Below, piece after piece: positions 53,276-62,802 of a stretch of 64,000 nt of DNA (positions within the stretch are counted from its first letter, which is position 1; each line of letters opens with the position of its first letter). The stretch covers positions 3,235,501 to 3,299,500 of the forward strand of contig NZ_JAJJMP010000001.1 of NCBI RefSeq assembly GCF_020905415.1. Reading direction: 5' to 3'. Origin of the DNA: Myroides oncorhynchi. Lineage in GTDB: Bacteria; Bacteroidota; Bacteroidia; Flavobacteriales; Flavobacteriaceae. The notes beneath the pieces are model-generated. The model had not been told where the DNA came from, searched no databases, and was given only the letters and a program-made list of their open reading frames with translations. Position numbers and translations under genes: made by a program.

Positions 53276-53305
53276 TTGTCTATTAAAATATAATTCTTTC
53301 ATTTG
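53276..53305 (+). promoter_or_regulatory. Promoter of the cysteine/sulfate operon leader
   Basis: TTG (53276-53278), a 19-base spacer, and TTCATTTG (53298-53305), a one-mismatch version of TAnnTTTG. Transcription would begin near 53312, 16 bases before the ATG of the Cys-rich leader frame at 53328. Confidence 0.55.
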
Positions 53306-53327
53306 TAGAAGAATTAAAAATAAAAAA

Positions 53328-53390
53328 ATGAGAATTTATAATTTAATTATGGTAATGTGTATGTGTCAATGCTTTTCAAAAGAGGAGTAG
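53328..53390 (+). CDS. Cys-rich leader peptide (20 codons) of the sulfate-assimilation operon
   Basis: ATG 53328 opens a 20-codon frame, MRIYNLIMVMCMCQCFSKEE, ended by TAG (53388-53390). Cys codons are TGT (53358), TGT (53364) and TGC (53370), i.e. three in five positions, very unusual in an AT-rich genome where Cys is rare. It lies between a good promoter and an intrinsic terminator directly before a cysteine-synthesis operon. In analogy to his and trp leader peptides, ribosomes short of Cys-tRNA would stall here. The segment GAGGAGT (53382-53388), spanning its last two codons and stop, is complementary to the 5' arm of the terminator, giving an antiterminator. The peptide itself need not have a function. 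Confidence 0.7.
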   Translation: MRIYNLIMVMCMCQCFSKEE

Positions 53391-53432
53391 TGAATGTGTA
53401 TGTTATATATTTAAATTAAACATTATACTTGA

Positions 53433-53467
53433 AACTCCTTATTAAATAAATAAGGAGTTTTTTTTAT
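53433..53467 (+). terminator. Attenuator terminator before the Rrf2-cys operon
   Basis: AACTCCTTATT (53433-53443) pairs perfectly (11 bp) with AATAAGGAGTT (53449-53459), followed by TTTTTTT; the T-run ends 16 bases before the Rrf2 gene ATG (53483). No gene other than the Cys-rich leader frame precedes it, so its purpose must be leader transcript control. ACTCCTT (53434-53440) can instead pair with GAGGAGT (53382-53388), 7 bp with one G-U, which would prevent termination. Confidence 0.8.
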
Positions 53468-53482
53468 ACTAAAATTAAAATT

Positions 53483-53899
53483 ATGTTATCAAAGCGATGT
53501 AAGTATGCTTTAAAAGCGATGGTATGTTTAGCTAGAGTTTATCAAAATGGACATTTGACTATTGGAACTATCGCCGAGACTGAAAATATACCTAAGAAGT
53601 TTTTAGAACAGATTTTATTGGAGCTAAAACGAGTAAAATTAGTCAATAGTAAAAAGGGCTTAGCAGGTGGGTATTACTTGATTAAAGACCCTAAGGATGT
53701 ATCGGTAGCAGATTTATACCGAATATTTGATGGACCTATTGCACTTACACCATGTGTCTCATTAAATTATTACGAGCCATGTGATGATTGTTTAGATGAA
53801 GAAAATTGTTATTTAAGAAAACAATTTATTGAGATAAGAGACAAAACACGTAAGAGTATGTCTGAGGCAACACTTCAGCGTTTTATAGATAACGAATAA
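53483..53899 (+). CDS. Rrf2-family transcriptional regulator with four clustered cysteines
   Basis: The 138-residue protein is a winged-helix Rrf2 regulator: MLSKRCKYALKAMVCLARVY is the N-terminal helix, TIGTIAETENIPKKFLEQILLEL the recognition HTH and KKGLAGGYYL the wing. C91, C100, C103 and C109 (C-x8-C-x2-C-x5-C) lie where IscR and NsrR bind a 2Fe-2S or 4Fe-4S cluster, so a metal or redox site is likely. Rrf2 members include CymR, which represses Bacillus subtilis cysteine genes in complex with CysK; cysK is five genes downstream here. As first gene of the operon it probably regulates the genes behind it (inference). Confidence 0.92.
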   Translation: MLSKRCKYALKAMVCLARVYQNGHLTIGTIAETENIPKKFLEQILLELKRVKLVNSKKGLAGGYYLIKDPKDVSVADLYRIFDGPIALTPCVSLNYYEPCDDCLDEENCYLRKQFIEIRDKTRKSMSEATLQRFIDNE

Positions 53900-53962: not shown

Positions 53963-54673
53963 ATGAATCTAAAAGAAAGCTTTGAATACTTGATATTAAG
54001 AGATATACAGGCATTATCATTCAATGATCAAATGCTATATCTACAGCAACATTTTAATTCTATTTGTTTTTCAACAAGCTTTAGTTATGAAGATCAGGTG
54101 ATCACTCATATGTTAAAAGACTTTAAGGATGTAGCCTTTTTTACTCTTGATACAGGGCGTTTATTTGAACAGACATATGATACTTGGAATTTAACCATAG
54201 CTAAGTATGGTCTTAAAATTACAAGTTATTTTCCTGAGAGTACATCAGTTGAAGAGTTTGTGAATACCAATGGACCAGATAGTTTTTATAAATCTGTAGA
54301 ACTGCGTAAAGAGTGTTGTTTCATTAGAAAGGTTTTACCCTTAAAAAGAGCCTTAGATCAAAAGCAGATTTGGATAACAGGTTTAAGAGCAGAACATTCA
54401 ATCAATAGACAAAATATGAGCCCATTTGAGTGGGATGAGCAAAATCAAATTATCAAGTTTCATCCTTTACTACTTTGGACAACGCAGCAGGTTATTTCTT
54501 TTGTAGAAGAAAACCAAATTCCTTACAACCCTTTACACAAGCAAGGCTATATCAGTATAGGTTGTAGTCCGTGTACAAGAGCAATTAAGCCAACAGAAGA
54601 CTTTAGAGCTGGTAGATGGTGGTGGGAAGATGCTTCTAAAAAGGAGTGTGGATTACATTTAAAAACAGAATAA
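53963..54673 (+). CDS. cysH: Adenylylsulfate (APS) reductase, CysH family
   Basis: The 236-residue protein reduces activated sulfate to sulfite in the cytosol with thioredoxin. It has the PAPS-reductase fold with FSTSFSYEDQVITHML, C118-C119 in RKECCFIRK, C201 and C204 in GCSPCTRAI, and the catalytic C-terminal Cys C229 in KECGLHLK. The CC...CxxC set binds a 4Fe-4S cluster and marks the APS-using type, in contrast to E. coli CysH which uses PAPS. The absence of an APS kinase gene (cysC) in the operon agrees. Confidence 0.93.
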   Translation: MNLKESFEYLILRDIQALSFNDQMLYLQQHFNSICFSTSFSYEDQVITHMLKDFKDVAFFTLDTGRLFEQTYDTWNLTIAKYGLKITSYFPESTSVEEFVNTNGPDSFYKSVELRKECCFIRKVLPLKRALDQKQIWITGLRAEHSINRQNMSPFEWDEQNQIIKFHPLLLWTTQQVISFVEENQIPYNPLHKQGYISIGCSPCTRAIKPTEDFRAGRWWWEDASKKECGLHLKTE

Positions 54674-54688
54674 TTATTATTAACTGAC

Positions 54689-55591
54689 ATGATACAAAAC
54701 AATTATTTAGAAACTTTAGAGCAAGAGGCAATCTATATACTTAGAGAAACAGCTGCTCAATTTGAGAAACCAGCTTTGCTTTTCTCAGGAGGAAAAGACT
54801 CTATCGTTCTTGTTCACTTGGCACTAAAGGCCTTTAGACCAGGGAAGTTCCCGTTTCCATTAGTACATATTGATACAGGGCATAATTTCCCTGAAGCAAT
54901 AGAATTTAGAGATAAATTGGTTGAAGAAATTCAAGAAAAGCTTATCGTATCAAATGTAGAGGATAGTATTAAGAAGTATAACTTAAAAGAAACGCAAGGG
55001 AGATTTGCCTCTAGAAACTCTTTACAGGCCTATACTTTATTAGATACTATTCAAGAACACGAGTTTGATGCTTGTATAGGAGGAGCAAGAAGAGATGAAG
55101 AGAAGGCAAGGGCTAAGGAGAGAATATTTTCTTTAAGAAGTGATTTCGGACAGTGGGACCCAAAACTTCAACGTCCTGAGCTATGGGATATTGTCAACGG
55201 AAATATGCAAGCAGGTCATAACACAAGGGTATTTCCTATTAGCAACTGGACTGAATTAGATATCTGGAATTATATCAAAGCTAACAATATAGAGTTACCA
55301 GGACTATATTTTTCACATCAAAGAGAGTGTATACAATATAACGATAAACTAATTGCTGTGTCTGATTTCACAACTGCATTAAACCACGAGCAAGTAGTAA
55401 CTACCTCGGTGCGTTATCGTACAGTAGGAGATATGACCTGTACGGCAGCGATTGCTTCTAAAGCAGAGACAGTAGATGATATTATTGAAGATATCAAAAA
55501 CTCTAGAATAAGTGAAAGAGGTCAAACCAGGCTTGATGATCTGTTGTCAGAATCAGCGATGGAAGATCGAAAAAAGAAAGGATATTTTTAA
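54689..55591 (+). CDS. cysD: Sulfate adenylyltransferase subunit 2
   Basis: CysD (300 residues) adenylates sulfate with ATP to form APS, together with the GTPase CysN. The PP-loop FSGGKDSIVLVHLA (SGGKDS 33-38), HIDTGHNFPE, FDACIGGARRDEEKARAKERIFS and the C-terminal SERGQTRLDDLLSESAMEDRKKKGYF are complete. It lies 15 bases after cysH and 19 before cysN, clearly in the same operon. Confidence 0.96.
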   Translation: MIQNNYLETLEQEAIYILRETAAQFEKPALLFSGGKDSIVLVHLALKAFRPGKFPFPLVHIDTGHNFPEAIEFRDKLVEEIQEKLIVSNVEDSIKKYNLKETQGRFASRNSLQAYTLLDTIQEHEFDACIGGARRDEEKARAKERIFSLRSDFGQWDPKLQRPELWDIVNGNMQAGHNTRVFPISNWTELDIWNYIKANNIELPGLYFSHQRECIQYNDKLIAVSDFTTALNHEQVVTTSVRYRTVGDMTCTAAIASKAETVDDIIEDIKNSRISERGQTRLDDLLSESAMEDRKKKGYF

Positions 55592-55610
55592 TTGTAGTAA
55601 ATAAAAAGAA

Positions 55611-56846
55611 ATGCAAACATTAAAGTTTATAACAGCGGGGAATGTTGATGATGGTAAGAGTACTTTAATAGGTAGACTATTATATGACTCTAATAGTATA
55701 TCAACAGATCACCTTGGCGTATTGGCAAGTAAAAGTGAGATAGGAGAGGATACAATAGATCTAGCATTAATTACAGATGGCTTAAGAGCAGAGCGCGAAC
55801 AAGGAATCACAATTGATGTTGCTTATAAGTATTTTTCTACTGCGAGTAGAAAATTTATTATAGCCGATTCTCCAGGGCACCAACAGTATACTAAAAATAT
55901 GATAACGGCTGCTTCTGTTTCTGATTTGATAATAATCCTTATTGATATTAGAAAGGGAATTACTGAGCAAACAAAACGACATGCTTCTATTGCCTCTTTA
56001 ATGGGCATTAAGAAAGTGATTGTAGCTGTCAATAAAATTGATTTGGTTCAGTATAGTCAAGAGCAATATGAATTAGTTAAAACTGAATTTGACATATTAA
56101 AACAACAGCTAGACTTTACAGAGGTTTTATATATTCCAATAAGTGCACTTGAGGGTGATAATATTGTAAATCATTCTATTTTAACACCTTGGTATAAAGG
56201 AAAGACATTGCTAGGTATTCTAGAAACAATTCAGATCGAAACTCAGCTTAGAAATGTATCTCGTTTTCAGGTACAATTAATTATTAGGCCTCAAACAAAA
56301 GAGTATTTAGACTATAGAGGATACGCTGGACTTGTTTTAAGTGGTCAATATAAAGTAGGTGATAGAGTTAGAGTACTTCCTAGTGATATATCAGCTACTA
56401 TTATCAAATTAGAAAAGAATCTACAAGAAGTCAATCAGGTTGTCACAGGCGATAATATAGTGATGCATTTTGATTCAGATATTGATATAAGTAGGGGAGA
56501 CACCATTTATCTTGAAGATCAGAAATCTCCTGAGATTTCAAATAAGCTAACCTCGTGGATAAGCTGGCTTGATACGGAAGACCTTCACCTAGGAAAAACC
56601 TATATATTGAAGCATCGTTTTCATAGTGTAAGAGTTAAAATCAAATCCATTGATCGAAAATGGGATATTAATAAGTTAGAATTTCATCAAGGAGATAAAG
56701 TTAGCCTGAATGATATTGCTCAGGTTAGTCTACAGACAAGTCAGAGTTTAAATTATGACCCTTTTATTGAAAATTCTAAAACAGGAAATGCCATATTAGT
56801 TGATGAAACGTCTTACAACACTGTTGGGGCTTTAATGTTTTTATAA
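55611..56846 (+). CDS. cysN: Sulfate adenylyltransferase subunit 1 (GTPase)
   Basis: CysN (411 residues) is an EF-Tu-like GTPase that drives sulfate adenylation by CysD. G1 GNVDDGKST (10-18), G3 DSPGH, G4 NKID and an EF-Tu-like beta-barrel C-terminal domain are present. The length shows that no APS kinase domain is fused, unlike CysNC proteins, which fits the APS-type CysH. Fourteen bases separate it from cysE. Confidence 0.95.
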   Translation: MQTLKFITAGNVDDGKSTLIGRLLYDSNSISTDHLGVLASKSEIGEDTIDLALITDGLRAEREQGITIDVAYKYFSTASRKFIIADSPGHQQYTKNMITAASVSDLIIILIDIRKGITEQTKRHASIASLMGIKKVIVAVNKIDLVQYSQEQYELVKTEFDILKQQLDFTEVLYIPISALEGDNIVNHSILTPWYKGKTLLGILETIQIETQLRNVSRFQVQLIIRPQTKEYLDYRGYAGLVLSGQYKVGDRVRVLPSDISATIIKLEKNLQEVNQVVTGDNIVMHFDSDIDISRGDTIYLEDQKSPEISNKLTSWISWLDTEDLHLGKTYILKHRFHSVRVKIKSIDRKWDINKLEFHQGDKVSLNDIAQVSLQTSQSLNYDPFIENSKTGNAILVDETSYNTVGALMFL

Positions 56847-56860
56847 ATTCCTTTTATAGT

Positions 56861-57643
56861 ATGAGGGATTATATATACAATAAAACTATTAAAAATAAAG
56901 TACCTAATAAGCAGAAGCTAGAAAGCTGGCTGGATCAGTTTTACAATTGGATGTTTACTAACTATAACTATGATTGTTTTGCTGATTTTTTAAATACTGA
57001 AAAGGCCTTAAAAAGCGAATTAGAAAATATTATATCAACTGTTGTCTCAAAAGAAAAAGCAAAGTATAAAACTGTTCTTTTTTTTAATAGTATAGATTCT
57101 TTATATAATTTATTGGAGTCTGATTTACAAAAGTATAATGATAGTAATCTAATTATTCAGTTTAAGTCAGAAGTATTGTCTTGTTATCCTGGTTTTTTGG
57201 CTGTTTTTATATATCGAATATCACATATTTTGGTAGAATTAAATATTCCAATGCTACCAAGAATAGCGTCTTTATATGCTTATCGTTTAACAGGTATAGA
57301 TATAGATCCTCATGCTAAAATAGGAAGTCAATTTATTATTTTTCACGGACTAGGGGTAGTTATAGGCAGTACAACAATTATTGGTAATAATGTAAAGATT
57401 TACCAAGGAGTAATTCTAGGAGAGTCTCAAACCAATTTAAAACAGACACAAAAAAGGCACCCAACTATTGAGGATGATGTTATTATTTGTGCTAATGCAT
57501 CTGTTTTAGGAGGGAAAACAAGAATAGGAAGACAGTCAATAATAGGACATAATGTTGTGATAACAAGTTCAATTAAAGAGAAGTCTATTGTAGAATTAAC
57601 TTCTAGCTATAGTATTAGAATAAAAGATGAATTAACCAAATGA
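56861..57643 (+). CDS. cysE: Serine O-acetyltransferase
   Basis: The 260-residue protein has a helical N-terminal domain (1-125) and a hexapeptide left-handed beta-helix (about 140-245). LTGIDIDPHAKIGSQFIIFHGLGVVIG carries the active-site His (H162), matching the serine acetyltransferase pattern IDIHPGA..G....IDHG.GVVIG with FHG in place of DHG. It makes O-acetylserine from serine and acetyl-CoA, the carbon skeleton for cysteine. Position between cysN and cysK supports the call. E. coli CysE is inhibited by cysteine; whether this form is cannot be told. Confidence 0.9.
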   Translation: MRDYIYNKTIKNKVPNKQKLESWLDQFYNWMFTNYNYDCFADFLNTEKALKSELENIISTVVSKEKAKYKTVLFFNSIDSLYNLLESDLQKYNDSNLIIQFKSEVLSCYPGFLAVFIYRISHILVELNIPMLPRIASLYAYRLTGIDIDPHAKIGSQFIIFHGLGVVIGSTTIIGNNVKIYQGVILGESQTNLKQTQKRHPTIEDDVIICANASVLGGKTRIGRQSIIGHNVVITSSIKEKSIVELTSSYSIRIKDELTK

Positions 57644-57670
57644 ACAATTTTAAACCAAAATAATATAAAA

Positions 57671-58582
57671 ATGAAAGTAGAAAGTATTTTAGAAACCATT
57701 GGAAATACGCCTGTACTAAAGTTAAATAGGTATTTTTCAGACCAAGATAATGTATGGATAAAACTAGAAAAAGCAAATCCAGGAGGGAGTATTAAAGATC
57801 GCATTGCATTGGCAATGATAGAGGATGCCGAGGCTAAAGGTTTATTAAAACCCGGAGGAGTAATTATTGAACCAACCTCAGGTAATACAGGTATTGGTCT
57901 TGCCTTAGTTGGAGCTGTTAAAGGATATAAGGTGATTGTTGTAATGCCTGAATCTATGAGCGTTGAAAGAAGAAAATTAATGCAAATCTATGGCGCTAAC
58001 TTTGAGTTAACCCCAAAAGAAAAAGGAATGAAAGGGGCTATAGAAAAAGCAGAGGAACTAGTAAAACAGATTCCTAATGCTTGGTCGGCTAGACAGTTTA
58101 ATAATCCAGTGAATGTAGATATTCATGCTAGAAGTACTGCTTTAGAAATTATTAAGGATTTTCCACAAGGATTAGATTATTTAGTTACAGGAGTGGGAAC
58201 AGGAGGACATATAACAGGAGTCTCTAAGGTTTTAAAGCAAAAATTTCCTAATCTTAAGGTAATAGCTGTCGAACCTGATGCTTCGGCTGTACTTAGCCTT
58301 GAAGCATCAGGACCTCACGCTATCCAAGGTATTGGAGCAGGATTTATTCCAGAAATTCTAGACACTACATTATTGGATGGTATAATTAAAATCTCTAAAC
58401 AAGAAGCTTTTGTGGGGGCTAAAAACCTTGCTTTGCAAGAAGGGCTTCTAGTAGGAATATCAACAGGAGCCTCTGTAGCAGCAGTGGCAAAATTATTGCC
58501 AAGTATAGATAAAGCAGCTAGAGTACTTACGTTTAACTATGATAGTGGTGAGCGCTACTTATCTATAGAAGACTTGTTTTAA
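57671..58582 (+). CDS. cysK: Cysteine synthase A (O-acetylserine sulfhydrylase)
   Basis: The 303-residue PLP enzyme joins sulfide and O-acetylserine to cysteine. The PLP lysine is K42 in [24 protein letters not shown] binds the substrate and [14 protein letters not shown] the cofactor phosphate; the end is [11 protein letters not shown]. All are standard for CysK. CysK proteins can also bind the CysE C-terminus and, in B. subtilis, the Rrf2 regulator CymR; both partner families are in this operon. It starts 27 bases after cysE. Confidence 0.95.
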
Positions 58583-58593
58583 TACCAAGGATT

Positions 58594-59406
58594 ATGAATA
58601 GTACAAAAGTAATTTTAGCCGGAGCAGGCCCTGGAGATCCAGAGTTAATTAGTCTTAAGGCACTACGTTATTTAAAATCCGCAGATGTGATTTTAATTGA
58701 TCGCTTAGTTTCACCTGAATTAATAGAATTATATGCTAGCAAAACAGCTAGGGTAGTTTATGTTGGTAAACAGTGCTCTAAAGGAATACACACTCCACAA
58801 GAGCAAATAAATGACCTTATGGTTAGTTATGCTCAATTAGGATTAAAGGTGCTTAGATTAAAAGGAGGAGATGTCTCAATATTTTCTAACATATTAGATG
58901 AGTTAACTGTTTTAAAAAAGCATAATATCAATTATGAGATTATACCTGGTATATCAGCAGCTTTAGGAGCTGCAGCTTATAGTGGTATTCCACTTACTGC
59001 TAGAGGATATAGCCGAGCTGTTCGATTTTTAACTCTATGCGATACAGAGAATATTACTAAGGGTACTTGGCAAGATTTAGCACAAACCCAAGATACTTTG
59101 GTTTTTTACATGAGTGGACAAAAGTTAAAATACTTGGTAAATTCTCTAATCAATAATGGAATTGCAGCTGATAAAGGCATTGCTGTGATTCAACAAGCAA
59201 GTACAATATATCAGAGAACTACAGTCTATAGCTTTAAAGATTTACAACAACAGCAGCTTATTGAATTTGAGTATGTACCTACTTTGTTTATAGTAGGAAA
59301 AGTAGTTGAGCTGCACAATAAGTTCTCTTGGAAACAGGAGATTAAAACCCGAGAGATTCATTCTTATTTTGACAATCATATAAAAGAGTTTCAGCATGCA
59401 ATTTGA
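58594..59406 (+). CDS. cobA: Uroporphyrinogen-III C-methyltransferase
   Basis: The 270-residue SAM-dependent enzyme methylates uroporphyrinogen III twice to precorrin-2, the precursor of siroheme for CysI. Motifs VILAGAGPGDPELISLKALRYL (from residue 6), RLKGGDVSIFSN, EIIPGISAALGAAAYSGIPLTARGYSRAV are the SUMT signature. It is separate from the dehydrogenase/ferrochelatase that finishes siroheme, which is encoded at 62966. Its last 11 bases overlap cysJ, so translation of the two is likely coupled. Confidence 0.94.
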   Translation: MNSTKVILAGAGPGDPELISLKALRYLKSADVILIDRLVSPELIELYASKTARVVYVGKQCSKGIHTPQEQINDLMVSYAQLGLKVLRLKGGDVSIFSNILDELTVLKKHNINYEIIPGISAALGAAAYSGIPLTARGYSRAVRFLTLCDTENITKGTWQDLAQTQDTLVFYMSGQKLKYLVNSLINNGIAADKGIAVIQQASTIYQRTTVYSFKDLQQQQLIEFEYVPTLFIVGKVVELHNKFSWKQEIKTREIHSYFDNHIKEFQHAI

Positions 59407-61057
59407 TCAAAAAATAACCAACCTTAAAAAACAGGTCGAGCATTATTCTCGTGAAGAATTAATCTGGTTTAATGGATATCTTTCAGGACTATTAGAACAA
59501 AACCAGATACAATCAAGTAACCAAGAGACTTTAATTGATATTACTGAGATTAAACCTATTATTTTATATGGTAGTGAAACAGGCAATAGTAAAAAACTAG
59601 CATTTGAATTTTTAAAATTATGCAAGCTAAACAAAATTCAAGCAAGAAGTTTTGATCTAGCGACTTATAAAGTAGAGGATTTAAGTAAGGAGAATTTTAT
59701 TGTATTTATATGTAGCACACAAGGTGAGGGAGAACCACCTTTATCTGCTCAGAGTTTCTTTGAAAAATTATCTAAAGTAACACTTGATTTAAGCCAAGTT
59801 AGGTATTGTGTACTAGCGATTGGTGATAGCTCTTATCCGTTTTATTGTAAAGCAGGAGAACAATTAGATGCCTTACTGAAAAAGCAAGGATCTACACCAG
59901 TTATTGCTTTGCAAAAATTAGACGTTGACTATAAAGATCATACTAAGGTTTGGTTTGATACTGTTTTGGAGGCCCTTAGAAATAACACAATAAATAGTCC
60001 AAGAATAGGCACTAGTACTGTTTTACAAACAAATTCAAAAGTCGTCTATCAAGCAGTTGTTAATCACAAGGTACTTTTAAATGATAGAGAATCTAATAAG
60101 AAGACTTATCACCTAGAGCTTAGTTGCGATCAATATATTGATTATCAACCTGGCGATGCCATAGGAGTTTATTCTGTTAATGATAAAACAAGTATGCTAA
60201 AGATTGCTCAGATCTTAGGAGCCAAGAGTAGATTTGAGGAGTTAAAGGATTTGTGTATTACAGGATTAACCAAGACAGTAATCACGCAACTATCAGTTTG
60301 TTTAAAGATAGAAATCTCTCAAAACAGAATAGATCTTTTGGACTTATTGGAACGATACGACTTACAGGCTTCGATTGATTTTGATACAGTCAAAAGCTTA
60401 TTACAACCAATATCGCCAAGACTTTATTCTGTATCTTCTTCACCTCTTGCTCATGATAATCAAGTTCATCTAACAGTAGCTTTAGATCAGTTTGAAACTG
60501 AAAAAGAAAAGAAAACAGGATTGTGTTCTAACTATCTCTCTAGTTTTGAGATTGGACAGCAGATTAGTTTTTATGTTCATAACAATAGTGAATTTTATTT
60601 GCCAGAGCAGGATAAAGATGTCATAATGATTGGTCCGGGCACAGGTATAGCTCCTTTTAGAGCCTTTTTAGAACATCGTGATGCTAGTGGTAGCCAAGCC
60701 AGAAATTGGTTGTTTTTTGGGGAGCAATATTTTGTTTGTGATTTCTATTATCAAACAGAGATACAACAGTGGTTAGAAAGTGGAGTTTTAACTAGGTTAG
60801 ATACTGCATTTTCCAGGGATCAAAAACACAAAGTATATGTACAGGATAGATTAAAACAAAATCAAGAAGAGTTGTGGGCTTGGATACAGGCAGGTGCTAT
60901 AATTTATGTCTGTGGTCAGAAATCTCCAATGAGTGAAGATATAGACTCGACACTTATTGAAATTATTATGAATAACCAAAAGAGTTCTTTAGAGGTAGCT
61001 AAAGCGTATTTAGAACAGATGTTCCTAGATGGACAGTATAAAAAAGATGTGTATTAA
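59396..61057 (+). CDS. cysJ: Sulfite reductase flavoprotein subunit (CysJ-like)
   Basis: The 553-residue protein carries electrons from NADPH via FAD and FMN to CysI. Domains in order: short N-terminal helix, flavodoxin/FMN domain (about 52-195, ILYGSETGNSKKLA and STQGEGEPP), FAD-binding connecting domain (about 215-400, SPRLYSVSSSP) and NADPH-binding domain (about 400-553, MIGPGTGIAPFRAFLEHR, YVCGQKSPMS, QMFLDGQYKKDVY). Length is near that of E. coli CysJ. It overlaps cobA by 11 bases and is followed by cysI after 10. Confidence 0.94.
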   Translation: MQFDQKITNLKKQVEHYSREELIWFNGYLSGLLEQNQIQSSNQETLIDITEIKPIILYGSETGNSKKLAFEFLKLCKLNKIQARSFDLATYKVEDLSKENFIVFICSTQGEGEPPLSAQSFFEKLSKVTLDLSQVRYCVLAIGDSSYPFYCKAGEQLDALLKKQGSTPVIALQKLDVDYKDHTKVWFDTVLEALRNNTINSPRIGTSTVLQTNSKVVYQAVVNHKVLLNDRESNKKTYHLELSCDQYIDYQPGDAIGVYSVNDKTSMLKIAQILGAKSRFEELKDLCITGLTKTVITQLSVCLKIEISQNRIDLLDLLERYDLQASIDFDTVKSLLQPISPRLYSVSSSPLAHDNQVHLTVALDQFETEKEKKTGLCSNYLSSFEIGQQISFYVHNNSEFYLPEQDKDVIMIGPGTGIAPFRAFLEHRDASGSQARNWLFFGEQYFVCDFYYQTEIQQWLESGVLTRLDTAFSRDQKHKVYVQDRLKQNQEELWAWIQAGAIIYVCGQKSPMSEDIDSTLIEIIMNNQKSSLEVAKAYLEQMFLDGQYKKDVY

Positions 61058-61067
61058 TAAGTAGATT

Positions 61068-62711
61068 ATGAATCAAGATAAACTTTCTCCCATAGAGGGA
61101 ATTAAACAAAAAAGTGATGGTTTACGTGGTACTCTTTCTCAGAGTCTGCACGATAACCATACTGGTAATGTACGACCTGATGATGAGGCTTTAATTAAGT
61201 TTCATGGGATGTATGTACAGGATGATCGGGATAGAAGACAAGAAAGAGCTGAAAAGAAGTTAGATAAGCTTTACTCCTTTATGATTCGTCTTCGCATACC
61301 AGGTGGTGTAATCTCTAGTAAACAATGGCTAGCAATTCACGAGATATCTGAACTTTATGGAACAGGTGTTTTAAAGATTACAACCAGACAAACCATTCAG
61401 CTTCATGGATTATTAAAACATCAATTAAGTGATACGATCCAAGGATTTTTACTTGCAAAGTTAGATGCTATTGCAGCTTGTGGGGATGTTAATCGAAATG
61501 TTATTTGTAGTTCACATCCACAGGTATCTGCTGTTTTTGAACAGATTCATAACTATGCCGATAAGATATCTAAGATGCTTTTGCCTAAGACGCAGTCTTA
61601 CTATGAGGTGTGGATTGATAATCAGAAGGTTTATGATAGATCAGTTGAGTCGGACCCACTTTATCAAGATAAATATCTTCCTAGGAAATTTAAGATAGCT
61701 ATTGCTATTCCTCCTACCAATGATGTGGATGTATTTGCCAATGATATAGGTTTAATTGCCATAGTTGAAGATGAAAAATTAATAGGATTTAATATAGCTA
61801 TTGGTGGAGGCCTATCAACAACCCATGGTAATGAGCATACTTATTCAAGACTTGCTACTATTATAGGTTTTTCGGATAATGAGCAAGATATTATGAAACT
61901 TATCTATGAAGTACTTACAATACAAAGAGATTATGGCAATCGCGCTGATAGAAAGTTAGCTCGTTTAAAATATACTATTGATAGATTAGGAGTGGAGAGT
62001 TTTGTGACAGAACTAGAAAAAAGAGCTCAAGTAAAACTACAAGTTCCTAGAGCATATGAATTTACTGAGCGCAATGATAGATATGGTTGGCAACAAGCCC
62101 ATGATAAAAAATGGTATTATACGCTATTTGTTGAAAATGGAGTAGTAGCTACGTATCAGAAGGAGTTTTTACACGACTTATCTAAGTTATGTGTTTCGGA
62201 CTTTAAGTTTACTTGTAACCAAAACCTAATTTTGGGTGAAATCGATCAAGAGGACAAATGGTTAGTAGAAAGACTGATCACAAAGTACAAGATAGAGTTG
62301 CAAAACAGCAAGTTAAGAGAGAGTTCTATGTCATGTGTAGCTATGCCTACTTGTCCATTAGCCTTAGCAGAGGCACAGCGATATTTACCTGAATTAGTTA
62401 CAAAAATAGAGCCGCTATTAGAAAAACACCACTTGACTGACCAAGAGATAAGTATCCGTATGACAGGATGCCCTAATGGCTGTGGTCGTTCATACTTAGC
62501 AGAAATAGGTTTTGTAGGTACTGCCTCACAGGAATATAATTTAATGCTAGGAGGTGATCGTTATGGCACAAGATTAAATAAATTATATAAATCAAAACTA
62601 AAAGAACAAGATATCTTAACAGAATTAGATAGCTTATTTAACCTTTACAAGAAAGAGGCAATAGACAAAGAAACTTTTGGGGATTTTACCCATAGAAAGT
62701 TTTTTGTCTGA
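61068..62711 (+). CDS. cysI: Sulfite reductase haemoprotein subunit (CysI-like)
   Basis: The 547-residue enzyme reduces sulfite to sulfide with six electrons at a coupled siroheme/4Fe-4S centre. The four ligand cysteines are C423 and C429 (SCVAMPTCPLALAE) and C468 and C472 (MTGCPNGCGRSYLAE). Other family features are TTRQTIQLHGLLK, CGDVNRNV and NIAIGGGLSTTHGN. Sulfite rather than nitrite is inferred from the neighbouring genes. A non-coding leader with a second Cys-rich frame separates it from the siroheme synthase gene. Confidence 0.95.
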   Translation: MNQDKLSPIEGIKQKSDGLRGTLSQSLHDNHTGNVRPDDEALIKFHGMYVQDDRDRRQERAEKKLDKLYSFMIRLRIPGGVISSKQWLAIHEISELYGTGVLKITTRQTIQLHGLLKHQLSDTIQGFLLAKLDAIAACGDVNRNVICSSHPQVSAVFEQIHNYADKISKMLLPKTQSYYEVWIDNQKVYDRSVESDPLYQDKYLPRKFKIAIAIPPTNDVDVFANDIGLIAIVEDEKLIGFNIAIGGGLSTTHGNEHTYSRLATIIGFSDNEQDIMKLIYEVLTIQRDYGNRADRKLARLKYTIDRLGVESFVTELEKRAQVKLQVPRAYEFTERNDRYGWQQAHDKKWYYTLFVENGVVATYQKEFLHDLSKLCVSDFKFTCNQNLILGEIDQEDKWLVERLITKYKIELQNSKLRESSMSCVAMPTCPLALAEAQRYLPELVTKIEPLLEKHHLTDQEISIRMTGCPNGCGRSYLAEIGFVGTASQEYNLMLGGDRYGTRLNKLYKSKLKEQDILTELDSLFNLYKKEAIDKETFGDFTHRKFFV

Positions 62712-62760: not shown

Positions 62761-62802
62761 ATGCAAAGCTGTTGCTGTCCTATTATTTCTAGACTCTTTT
62801 AA
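62761..62802 (+). CDS. Second Cys-rich leader peptide (13 codons, MQSCCCPIISRLF)
   Basis: ATG 62761 opens a 13-codon frame with three consecutive Cys codons TGT TGC TGT (62770-62778), ended by TAA (62800-62802). It lies 49 bases after cysI and 163 bases before the siroheme synthase/transporter fusion gene. Three Cys in a row in such a short frame within a cysteine operon strongly suggests a cysteine-sensing leader peptide. It shares no sequence with the first leader at 53328. The last codons AGACTC lie in the stem of a small hairpin, so a ribosome on the frame would change RNA folding. Confidence 0.65.
   Translation: MQSCCCPIISRLF

Follow-up and report, generated by a model that had tools for sequence, protein, structure and literature searches.

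A probable cysteine-codon transcription attenuator before the sulfate-to-cysteine operon of Myroides, with related Cys and Met leaders in Flavobacterium

The window analysed here, a stretch of 64,000 nucleotides from Myroides oncorhynchi, contains a 20-codon frame with three cysteine codons shortly before a sulfate-to-cysteine operon, which raises the question of whether this short frame is the sensor of an amino-acid attenuator. In the trp and his attenuators of Proteobacteria, a leader ORF with regulatory codons is followed by an antiterminator and an intrinsic terminator that exclude each other, all placed before a biosynthetic operon. An earlier sequence-only reading had proposed the same logic for this locus, and all of the parts that it named were found by inspecting the sequence and by a pattern scan: the promoter-like TTG-N19-TTCATTTG, the frame with Cys at codons 11, 13 and 15, the GAGGAGT/ACTCCTT pairing and a terminator with a T run. 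The features of the locus are as follows.

53276..53305, plus strand: promoter of the flavobacterial type, called from the sequence (TTG at 53276-53278, 19 nt, TTCATTTG at 53298-53305)
53328..53390, plus strand: leader ORF MRIYNLIMVMCMCQCFSKEE, 20 codons with stop TAG, from sequence and alignment
53358..53372, plus strand: candidate regulatory Cys codons 11, 13 and 15 (TGT 53358-53360, TGT 53364-53366, TGC 53370-53372)
53382..53388, plus strand: region 2, GAGGAGT, the 5' strand of the antiterminator, which pairs with region 3 and spans two Glu codons together with the initial base of the stop codon
53431..53465, plus strand: intrinsic terminator (regions 3:4) and T run, by pattern scan (13 pairs over 53431-53461, T run to 53465)
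53434..53440, plus strand: region 3, ACTCCTT, at once the 5' arm of the terminator and the 3' strand of the antiterminator, by pattern scan, pairing and folding
53452-53458, plus strand: AAGGAGT, read from the sequence
53483..53899, plus strand: regulator of the Rrf2 family that opens the operon, scoring above the cut-off of the Rrf2 superfamily model, with the CymR and IscR models below theirs
53963..62711, plus strand: cysH, cysD, cysN, serine acetyltransferase (cysE), cysK, cobA, cysJ and cysI, by NCBIfam and Pfam
62761..62802, plus strand: second Cys-codon leader-like ORF, MQSCCCPIISRLF, between cysI and the fusion gene; M. odoratimimus has MKVCCIFITSFLF in the same place
62966-64412: siroheme-synthase-like/TauE-like fusion gene, named by eye, 3' of the second Cys-codon ORF

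The promoter call relies on TANNTTTG, which we take to be the flavobacterial promoter consensus. The T run of the terminator ends 17 nt 5' of rrf2 (ATG at 53483), and NCBIfam and Pfam models placed rrf2-cysHDN-cysE-cysK-cobA-cysJI directly 3', bearing out the claimed position ahead of a sulfate-to-cysteine operon, with the matches to the cysE/EpsC and cysJ models falling under their curated cut-offs. A search of the window against Rfam 15, including the T-box and SAM riboswitch families, gave nothing above the gathering threshold; the same search across 11 relatives' loci gave nothing at the leaders, the sole match being Flavo-1 in one locus (L016).

We conclude that the element is very probably a ribosome-mediated transcription attenuator that ties the operon to charged tRNA-Cys, the most likely signal, possibly together with Met. 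We infer the transcription start, translation of the leader, stalling and a response to starvation from the arrangement of these parts and from relatives. A ribosome would translate the 20-codon leader behind RNA polymerase. With ample Cys-tRNA, it would reach the stop codon and cover region 2, leaving region 3 free to pair with region 4, and transcription would terminate before rrf2. When Cys-tRNA is scarce, the ribosome would stall on Cys codon 11, 13 or 15 with region 2 just ahead of it, and the exposed region 2 would form a helix with region 3, lengthened by an apical helix, blocking the terminator so that the operon is transcribed. To our knowledge, transcription-translation coupling is little studied in Bacteroidota. 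In the window, positions 53394-53414 also hold a frame MCMLYI at Shine-Dalgarno distance after GAGGAG, which by eye is absent from the other Myroides; Bacteroidota seldom use Shine-Dalgarno starts.

To assess how readily such an arrangement arises by chance, we first considered codon frequency. Cys makes up 0.72% of the 16,553 codons in the larger ORFs of the window, and at this frequency at least three Cys in 19 codons are expected with p = 3.4e-4 per frame. We then scanned the window together with sixty 20-kb pieces of its genome, 1,264,000 bases in all out of 4.16 Mb, for intergenic ATG frames of 6-42 codons lying at most 450 nt before a same-strand ORF, scoring those with at least three Cys or CC and a terminator within 110 nt. 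This yielded 984 short intergenic frames before genes, among which 35 were Cys-rich, 34 had a terminator and one, the window leader, had both; a second Cys leader with a terminator was not found in these 1.264 Mb of the 4.16-Mb genome. A near-identical rule applied to relatives (37 loci around cysD, 594,927 bases) returned 15 Cys-rich frames, 11 of them with a terminator; all 11 head a cys or metY operon, and the other 4 have no terminator. BLAST of the leader against its own genome recovered itself, the reverse complement of its own terminator and 25 weak matches (E 0.001-0.75). The best of the weak matches (L143) was inspected and contained no leader. The second Cys-codon ORF of the window (62761-62802) has no terminator by the scan rule (within 110 nt) and no counterpart at the same place in M. 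pelagicus. A hairpin AAACTACC...GGTGGTTT lies 3' of it.

Taken alone, the 7-bp GAGGAGT/ACTCCTT pairing is modestly unlikely, as 4% of shuffles do equally well or better, and its weight comes from the support of relatives, not from its own statistics. The leader, its Cys codons and the terminator are conserved in all four Myroides species found; the leaders of M. odoratimimus, M. marinus and M. pelagicus, found via Rrf2 searches, are MRINNLNMVMCMCKCFSKEE, MRQNNLNMVMCMCQCFSKEE and MRQNSLDMCMCQCFFKKE, and a leader of the M. marinus type also occurs at locus L138. The alignment is constant at the promoter ATTTGTA (identical in 5/5 aligned leaders), the start region AAAATGAGA, the Cys codons and the terminator, and variable in the linker. 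The terminator of M. odoratimimus carries one compensatory change, from A-U to G-C. In M. pelagicus, two codons are lost in frame, and region 2 has moved to GAGTAAGGA, pairing with TCCTTATTC. The frame and its MCM motif extend to Flavobacterium sp. xlx-214 (L062), whose leader MRKLSLNTKMCMWSFSD entered the set through that motif; it has a weak antiterminator (28% of shuffles are as good), and the 2:3 pairing is absent from its predicted fold. Conservation of the Cys codons, a check proposed with the sequence-only reading, thus came out in its favour, with all three codons present in the four Myroides species found and only the first in xlx-214. Covariation of the pairing, proposed alongside, was likewise supported: the pairing survives the register shift in M. 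pelagicus, and leaders fit their own terminators on average across the 11 terminator types described below, with a weak antiterminator in xlx-214.

Beyond these species, a scan of four sister-clade genomes (G194, G329, G426 and G463) found a Cys frame with a terminator before rrf2 in 0/4, and G194 has an 8-codon MCCNKQQF before rrf2 with no terminator. The same arrangement occurred in none of 67 loci of Chryseobacterium, Elizabethkingia and Soonwooa, drawn from the best 80 of 356, and in none of 52 other rrf2 loci, one of which (L012) offered just 190 nt of upstream sequence. Searching by cysD gave a different set of relatives: among 397 genomes of the genus, 30 outside Myroides matched closely (E ≤ 1e-150), and all of these but one, G064, which has none, carry Cys leaders with a terminator downstream (29 of 30). 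Two leaders stand in series in 23 of the 29 genomes and one stands alone in 6, before cysH in 26, cysD in 2 (G410 and G254) and metY in 1 (G451). In one tandem example, MKNQVLNMMMCMCCSETEGLYATR with a CTCCTC terminator is followed by MNTIIIITTLLTSAACMMMCCCMRNFARGRLLYCLK with a GCCTCTTG terminator; another leader, MNQTICNTCCFMWKTSAEAGIA, goes with CCTCTGC. The window leader aligns to the first leader of three tandem genomes with M1 and MCM invariant and 47-53% identity. Some Flavobacterium leaders lie directly before cysH with no rrf2 between. Outside the genus, loci of about 14.9 kb centred on cysD gave a Cys leader with a terminator in 0/18 family and 0/2 order cases; two Cys leaders with terminators occur in a genome from another family (G672, locus L161).

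To determine if each leader fits its own terminator, we used a stacking-energy helix search for the best helix that the terminator 5' arm can form with the leader sequence 3' of the Cys cluster. We analysed 55 pairs (48 from Flavobacterium, 2 from L161, 4 from Myroides and 1 from xlx-214), leaving out four leaders of G410, G254 and G451. Helices with the own arm averaged -13.5 kcal/mol versus -10.3 (sd 0.34) with arms permuted, and 0 of 20,000 permutations reached the observed value, a test that overstates significance because the sequences are related. With one pair per terminator type (11 types), still none of 100,000 permutations reached it. The leader-terminator fit is therefore specific on average, and the antiterminator is maintained as the sequences change. 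When the 11 types were set against each other (11 x 11), just 4 of 11 leaders had their own arm as the best or a tied partner. The window leader does slightly better with two foreign arms than with its own, and because leaders are GA-rich and arms CT-rich, 65% of the non-cognate pairs that differ in type attain -8 kcal/mol.

We also folded these elements to assess whether a ribosome could control them. In the window, the whole antiterminator hairpin is predicted at -14.7 kcal/mol versus -13.7 for the terminator, which contradicts the earlier claim that the antiterminator is the weaker of the two. Folding from the Cys cluster to the terminator 5' arm paired region 2 with the arm (at least 4 bp) in 54/55 leaders, with means of -15.7 kcal/mol for antiterminators and -15.2 for terminators. 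Region 2 starts a median of 11 nt past the Cys cluster (range 3-21, n = 55), which is approximately the front edge of the footprint of a ribosome stalled there. When bases -15 to +12 around the stop codon, the assumed footprint of a ribosome at the stop, were barred from pairing, the mean antiterminator energy went from -15.7 to -5.2 kcal/mol, with a loss of at least 3 kcal/mol in 55/55 and at least 5 in 54/55; folds at most 1 kcal/mol weaker than the terminator dropped from 40/55 to 1/55. Of the 55 leaders, this ribosome would cover region 2 fully in 16, in part in 23, and leave it clear in the other 16, where it is predicted to break the apical helix instead; region 2:3 pairs (at least 4) survive the masked fold in 21/55. 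In the window, region 2 is wholly covered and the masked hairpin goes from -14.7 to 0, versus -13.7 kcal/mol for the terminator. The modelled spacing is compatible with masking of the antiterminator by the ribosome. The predicted fold of the window also has a 1:2 protector helix of TGCTTTTC with GAGGAGTA; a protector helix of this kind reached the 5% shuffle level in 3/55 leaders, the chance rate, and since it is not general, an untranslated leader might read through. In several Flavobacterium leaders of the CCTCTGC and CCTCTTG types, a small predicted hairpin (GGAA..TTCC or CGAA..TTCG) lies between the Cys cluster and the antiterminator, on which it may stack.

Next, we characterized the codon content of the 55 leaders. 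Cys accounts for 14.0% of residues (19-fold over background) and Met for 11.1% (7-fold); the Cys enrichment is partly built in because frames were chosen for Cys, and the Met figure is free of such selection. Met is concentrated around the Cys cluster, where it takes 134 of the 365 residues other than Cys. With Met codons also enriched, Cys and Met may together form the signal. The leaders maintain their number of Cys but not its spacing, with 24 patterns in 55 leaders, which argues against a fixed metal site.

The control scan of the source genome also revealed leaders of a second kind:

L296 4420-4682 (G000:C1), minus strand: MNTVYTMMMTMMMWRNPQGLLFA and MIYNTNTMMMAMMMMNMMMFTPPYCLKSTS, two Met-codon leaders in tandem, both followed by a terminator

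These precede metY, a metB/metC-like gene, metX and an aspartate-kinase-type (thrA-like) gene. Met/Cys leaders occur at all 17 metY loci of the genus that we examined, 4 in Myroides and 13 in others with mixed Met and Cys. In Myroides, leader codon content matches the pathway: the cys leaders have 12 Cys and 11 Met in 74 residues, and the 204 residues of the met leaders include 64 Met and 4 Cys. Outside Myroides, mixed Met and Cys leaders stand before both cys and met operons; the met-operon frames were selected by their Met plus Cys content. The met-operon pairs likewise showed an own-fit that is specific on average (28 pairs, 0/20,000 permutations), and several second met leaders pair weakly by the helix measure. 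The cys and met leaders of G467, MNFTMCNMCMMMWNNPQRKPVA and MNFTMCNMCMMMWNNPQRKPIA respectively, are one residue apart, suggesting that one operon received its unit as a copy from the other. On balance, we favour a duplicated attenuator module, in which homologous and often tandem units on the cys and met operons of Flavobacterium and Myroides would have been re-specified by exchange of Cys and Met codons. In the Flavobacterium relatives, two switches would often act in series before the cys operon, and Met or Met-plus-Cys switches would stand before the met operon.

A refinement that overlaps with charged tRNA-Cys sensing is that the leader senses both sulphur amino acids through stalling at Met as well as Cys codons. 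The 7-fold Met enrichment concentrated at the Cys cluster points this way, as do the non-Myroides met leaders that mix the two residues (in frames chosen for both) and the near-identical G467 leaders. However, the signals look separated in Myroides, where met leaders are nearly Cys-free Met runs and the cys leader has three Cys, and runs of ATG could be extra start codons; we consider joint sensing possible but somewhat doubtful. A different idea is that binding of a metal or thiol reagent by the emerging peptide, rich in Cys and Met, arrests the ribosome, with no sensing of charged tRNA. Peptide-mediated ribosome arrest has been proposed for copper-sensing uORFs, CxC and MCM motifs bind metal in other proteins, and TonB-dependent-receptor-like genes of Flavobacterium are preceded by short frames ending in MCMC. 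The variable spacing around a stable Cys count, the agreement of the downstream sulphur genes with the codons and the Met runs of the Myroides met leaders, with almost no Cys, make this reading improbable. As for the MCMC frames themselves, 16 loci (L003-L006, L012, L015, L016, L043, L045, L047, L049, L052 and L054-L057) have a short ORF between rrf2 and the next gene whose end, at or close to the stop, reads MCMC or the like; 46-59 nt separate it from that gene, which in two translations resembled a TonB-dependent receptor by eye. No terminator was apparent in the 7 gaps inspected. These ORFs are possibly another Cys/Met or metal-sensing leader.

The remaining alternatives set the leader or its terminator aside. 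If the terminator were constitutive and partial, Rrf2 could be the only regulator and the leader ORF incidental; rrf2 does lead the operon and could repress it, and the pairing statistics of the window leader are modest by themselves. We consider this very improbable given the conserved Cys-codon frames, the average leader-terminator specificity over 11 types and the Flavobacterium leaders that reach cysH with no rrf2 between. Equally hard to credit is an effect of the leader through Rho or translational coupling with the terminator secondary. Such a route has been suggested for the mycobacterial polycysteine leaders, which are without conserved terminator hairpins (PMC1262725), and the second Cys frame of the window (62761) lacks a terminator by the scan rule, but an intrinsic terminator follows the Cys leader in 29/30 close-cysD genomes. 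The attenuator reading, modelled on his and trp, is supported by the leader ORF, the terminator, the exclusive antiterminator and their conservation across relatives.

The attenuator class itself is already known, from trp and his and from Cys leaders in mycobacteria and before cysS in Rhodobacterales. The element resembles trp/his attenuators in its regulatory-codon leader ORF and exclusive antiterminator and terminator, and differs in its Cys (and Met) codons, its occurrence in Bacteroidota, its often serial layout and a protector helix that is not general. The mycobacterial polycysteine leader peptides are reportedly called leaderless in the title of a 2020 paper by Canestrari, cited in PMC13236596. 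The earlier mention of poly-Cys frames in mycobacteria agrees with PMC1262725, which describes Cys-run frames before cys operons and no conserved terminator hairpin; the window shares the Cys-rich frame before a cys operon and differs in that an intrinsic terminator follows this leader, by the pattern scan. In Rhodobacterales, the uORFC-8-2 motif before cysS is a uORF with tandem Cys codons; it too combines a Cys-codon uORF with a terminator-like 3' stem, and differs in its two Cys codons, its cysteinyl-tRNA synthetase gene and its alphaproteobacterial host (PMC8632094). Closer to Myroides, attenuation has been suspected before amino-acid operons of Flavobacterium psychrophilum, and pheA and hisG are among the genes for which conserved 5' elements are named; the main text seen names no cysteine or methionine operon, and its supplement may (PMC9723704). 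The earlier statement that no described flavobacterial case was known holds for Cys within the literature searched, and not for leader-peptide attenuation as such, already suggested in a flavobacterium (PMC9723704).

Within the literature searched (titles, abstract openings and passages, with subscription papers and supplements outside it), no Cys or Met leader attenuator is described in Bacteroidota, and Cys and Met attenuation in this phylum, the tandem layout and the re-specification between Cys and Met appear to be new. The comparisons thus bear out, as comparative evidence, that sulphur metabolism in Bacteroidota may be under attenuation of the classical kind, with Cys and Met as unusual signals among such switches. 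As related units differ in their Cys and Met codons, whether the codons set the signal is directly testable. If the duplicated module is real, these bacteria would have attenuators built on Met codons, a natural series of codon swaps and a sulphur-amino-acid switch in two stages.
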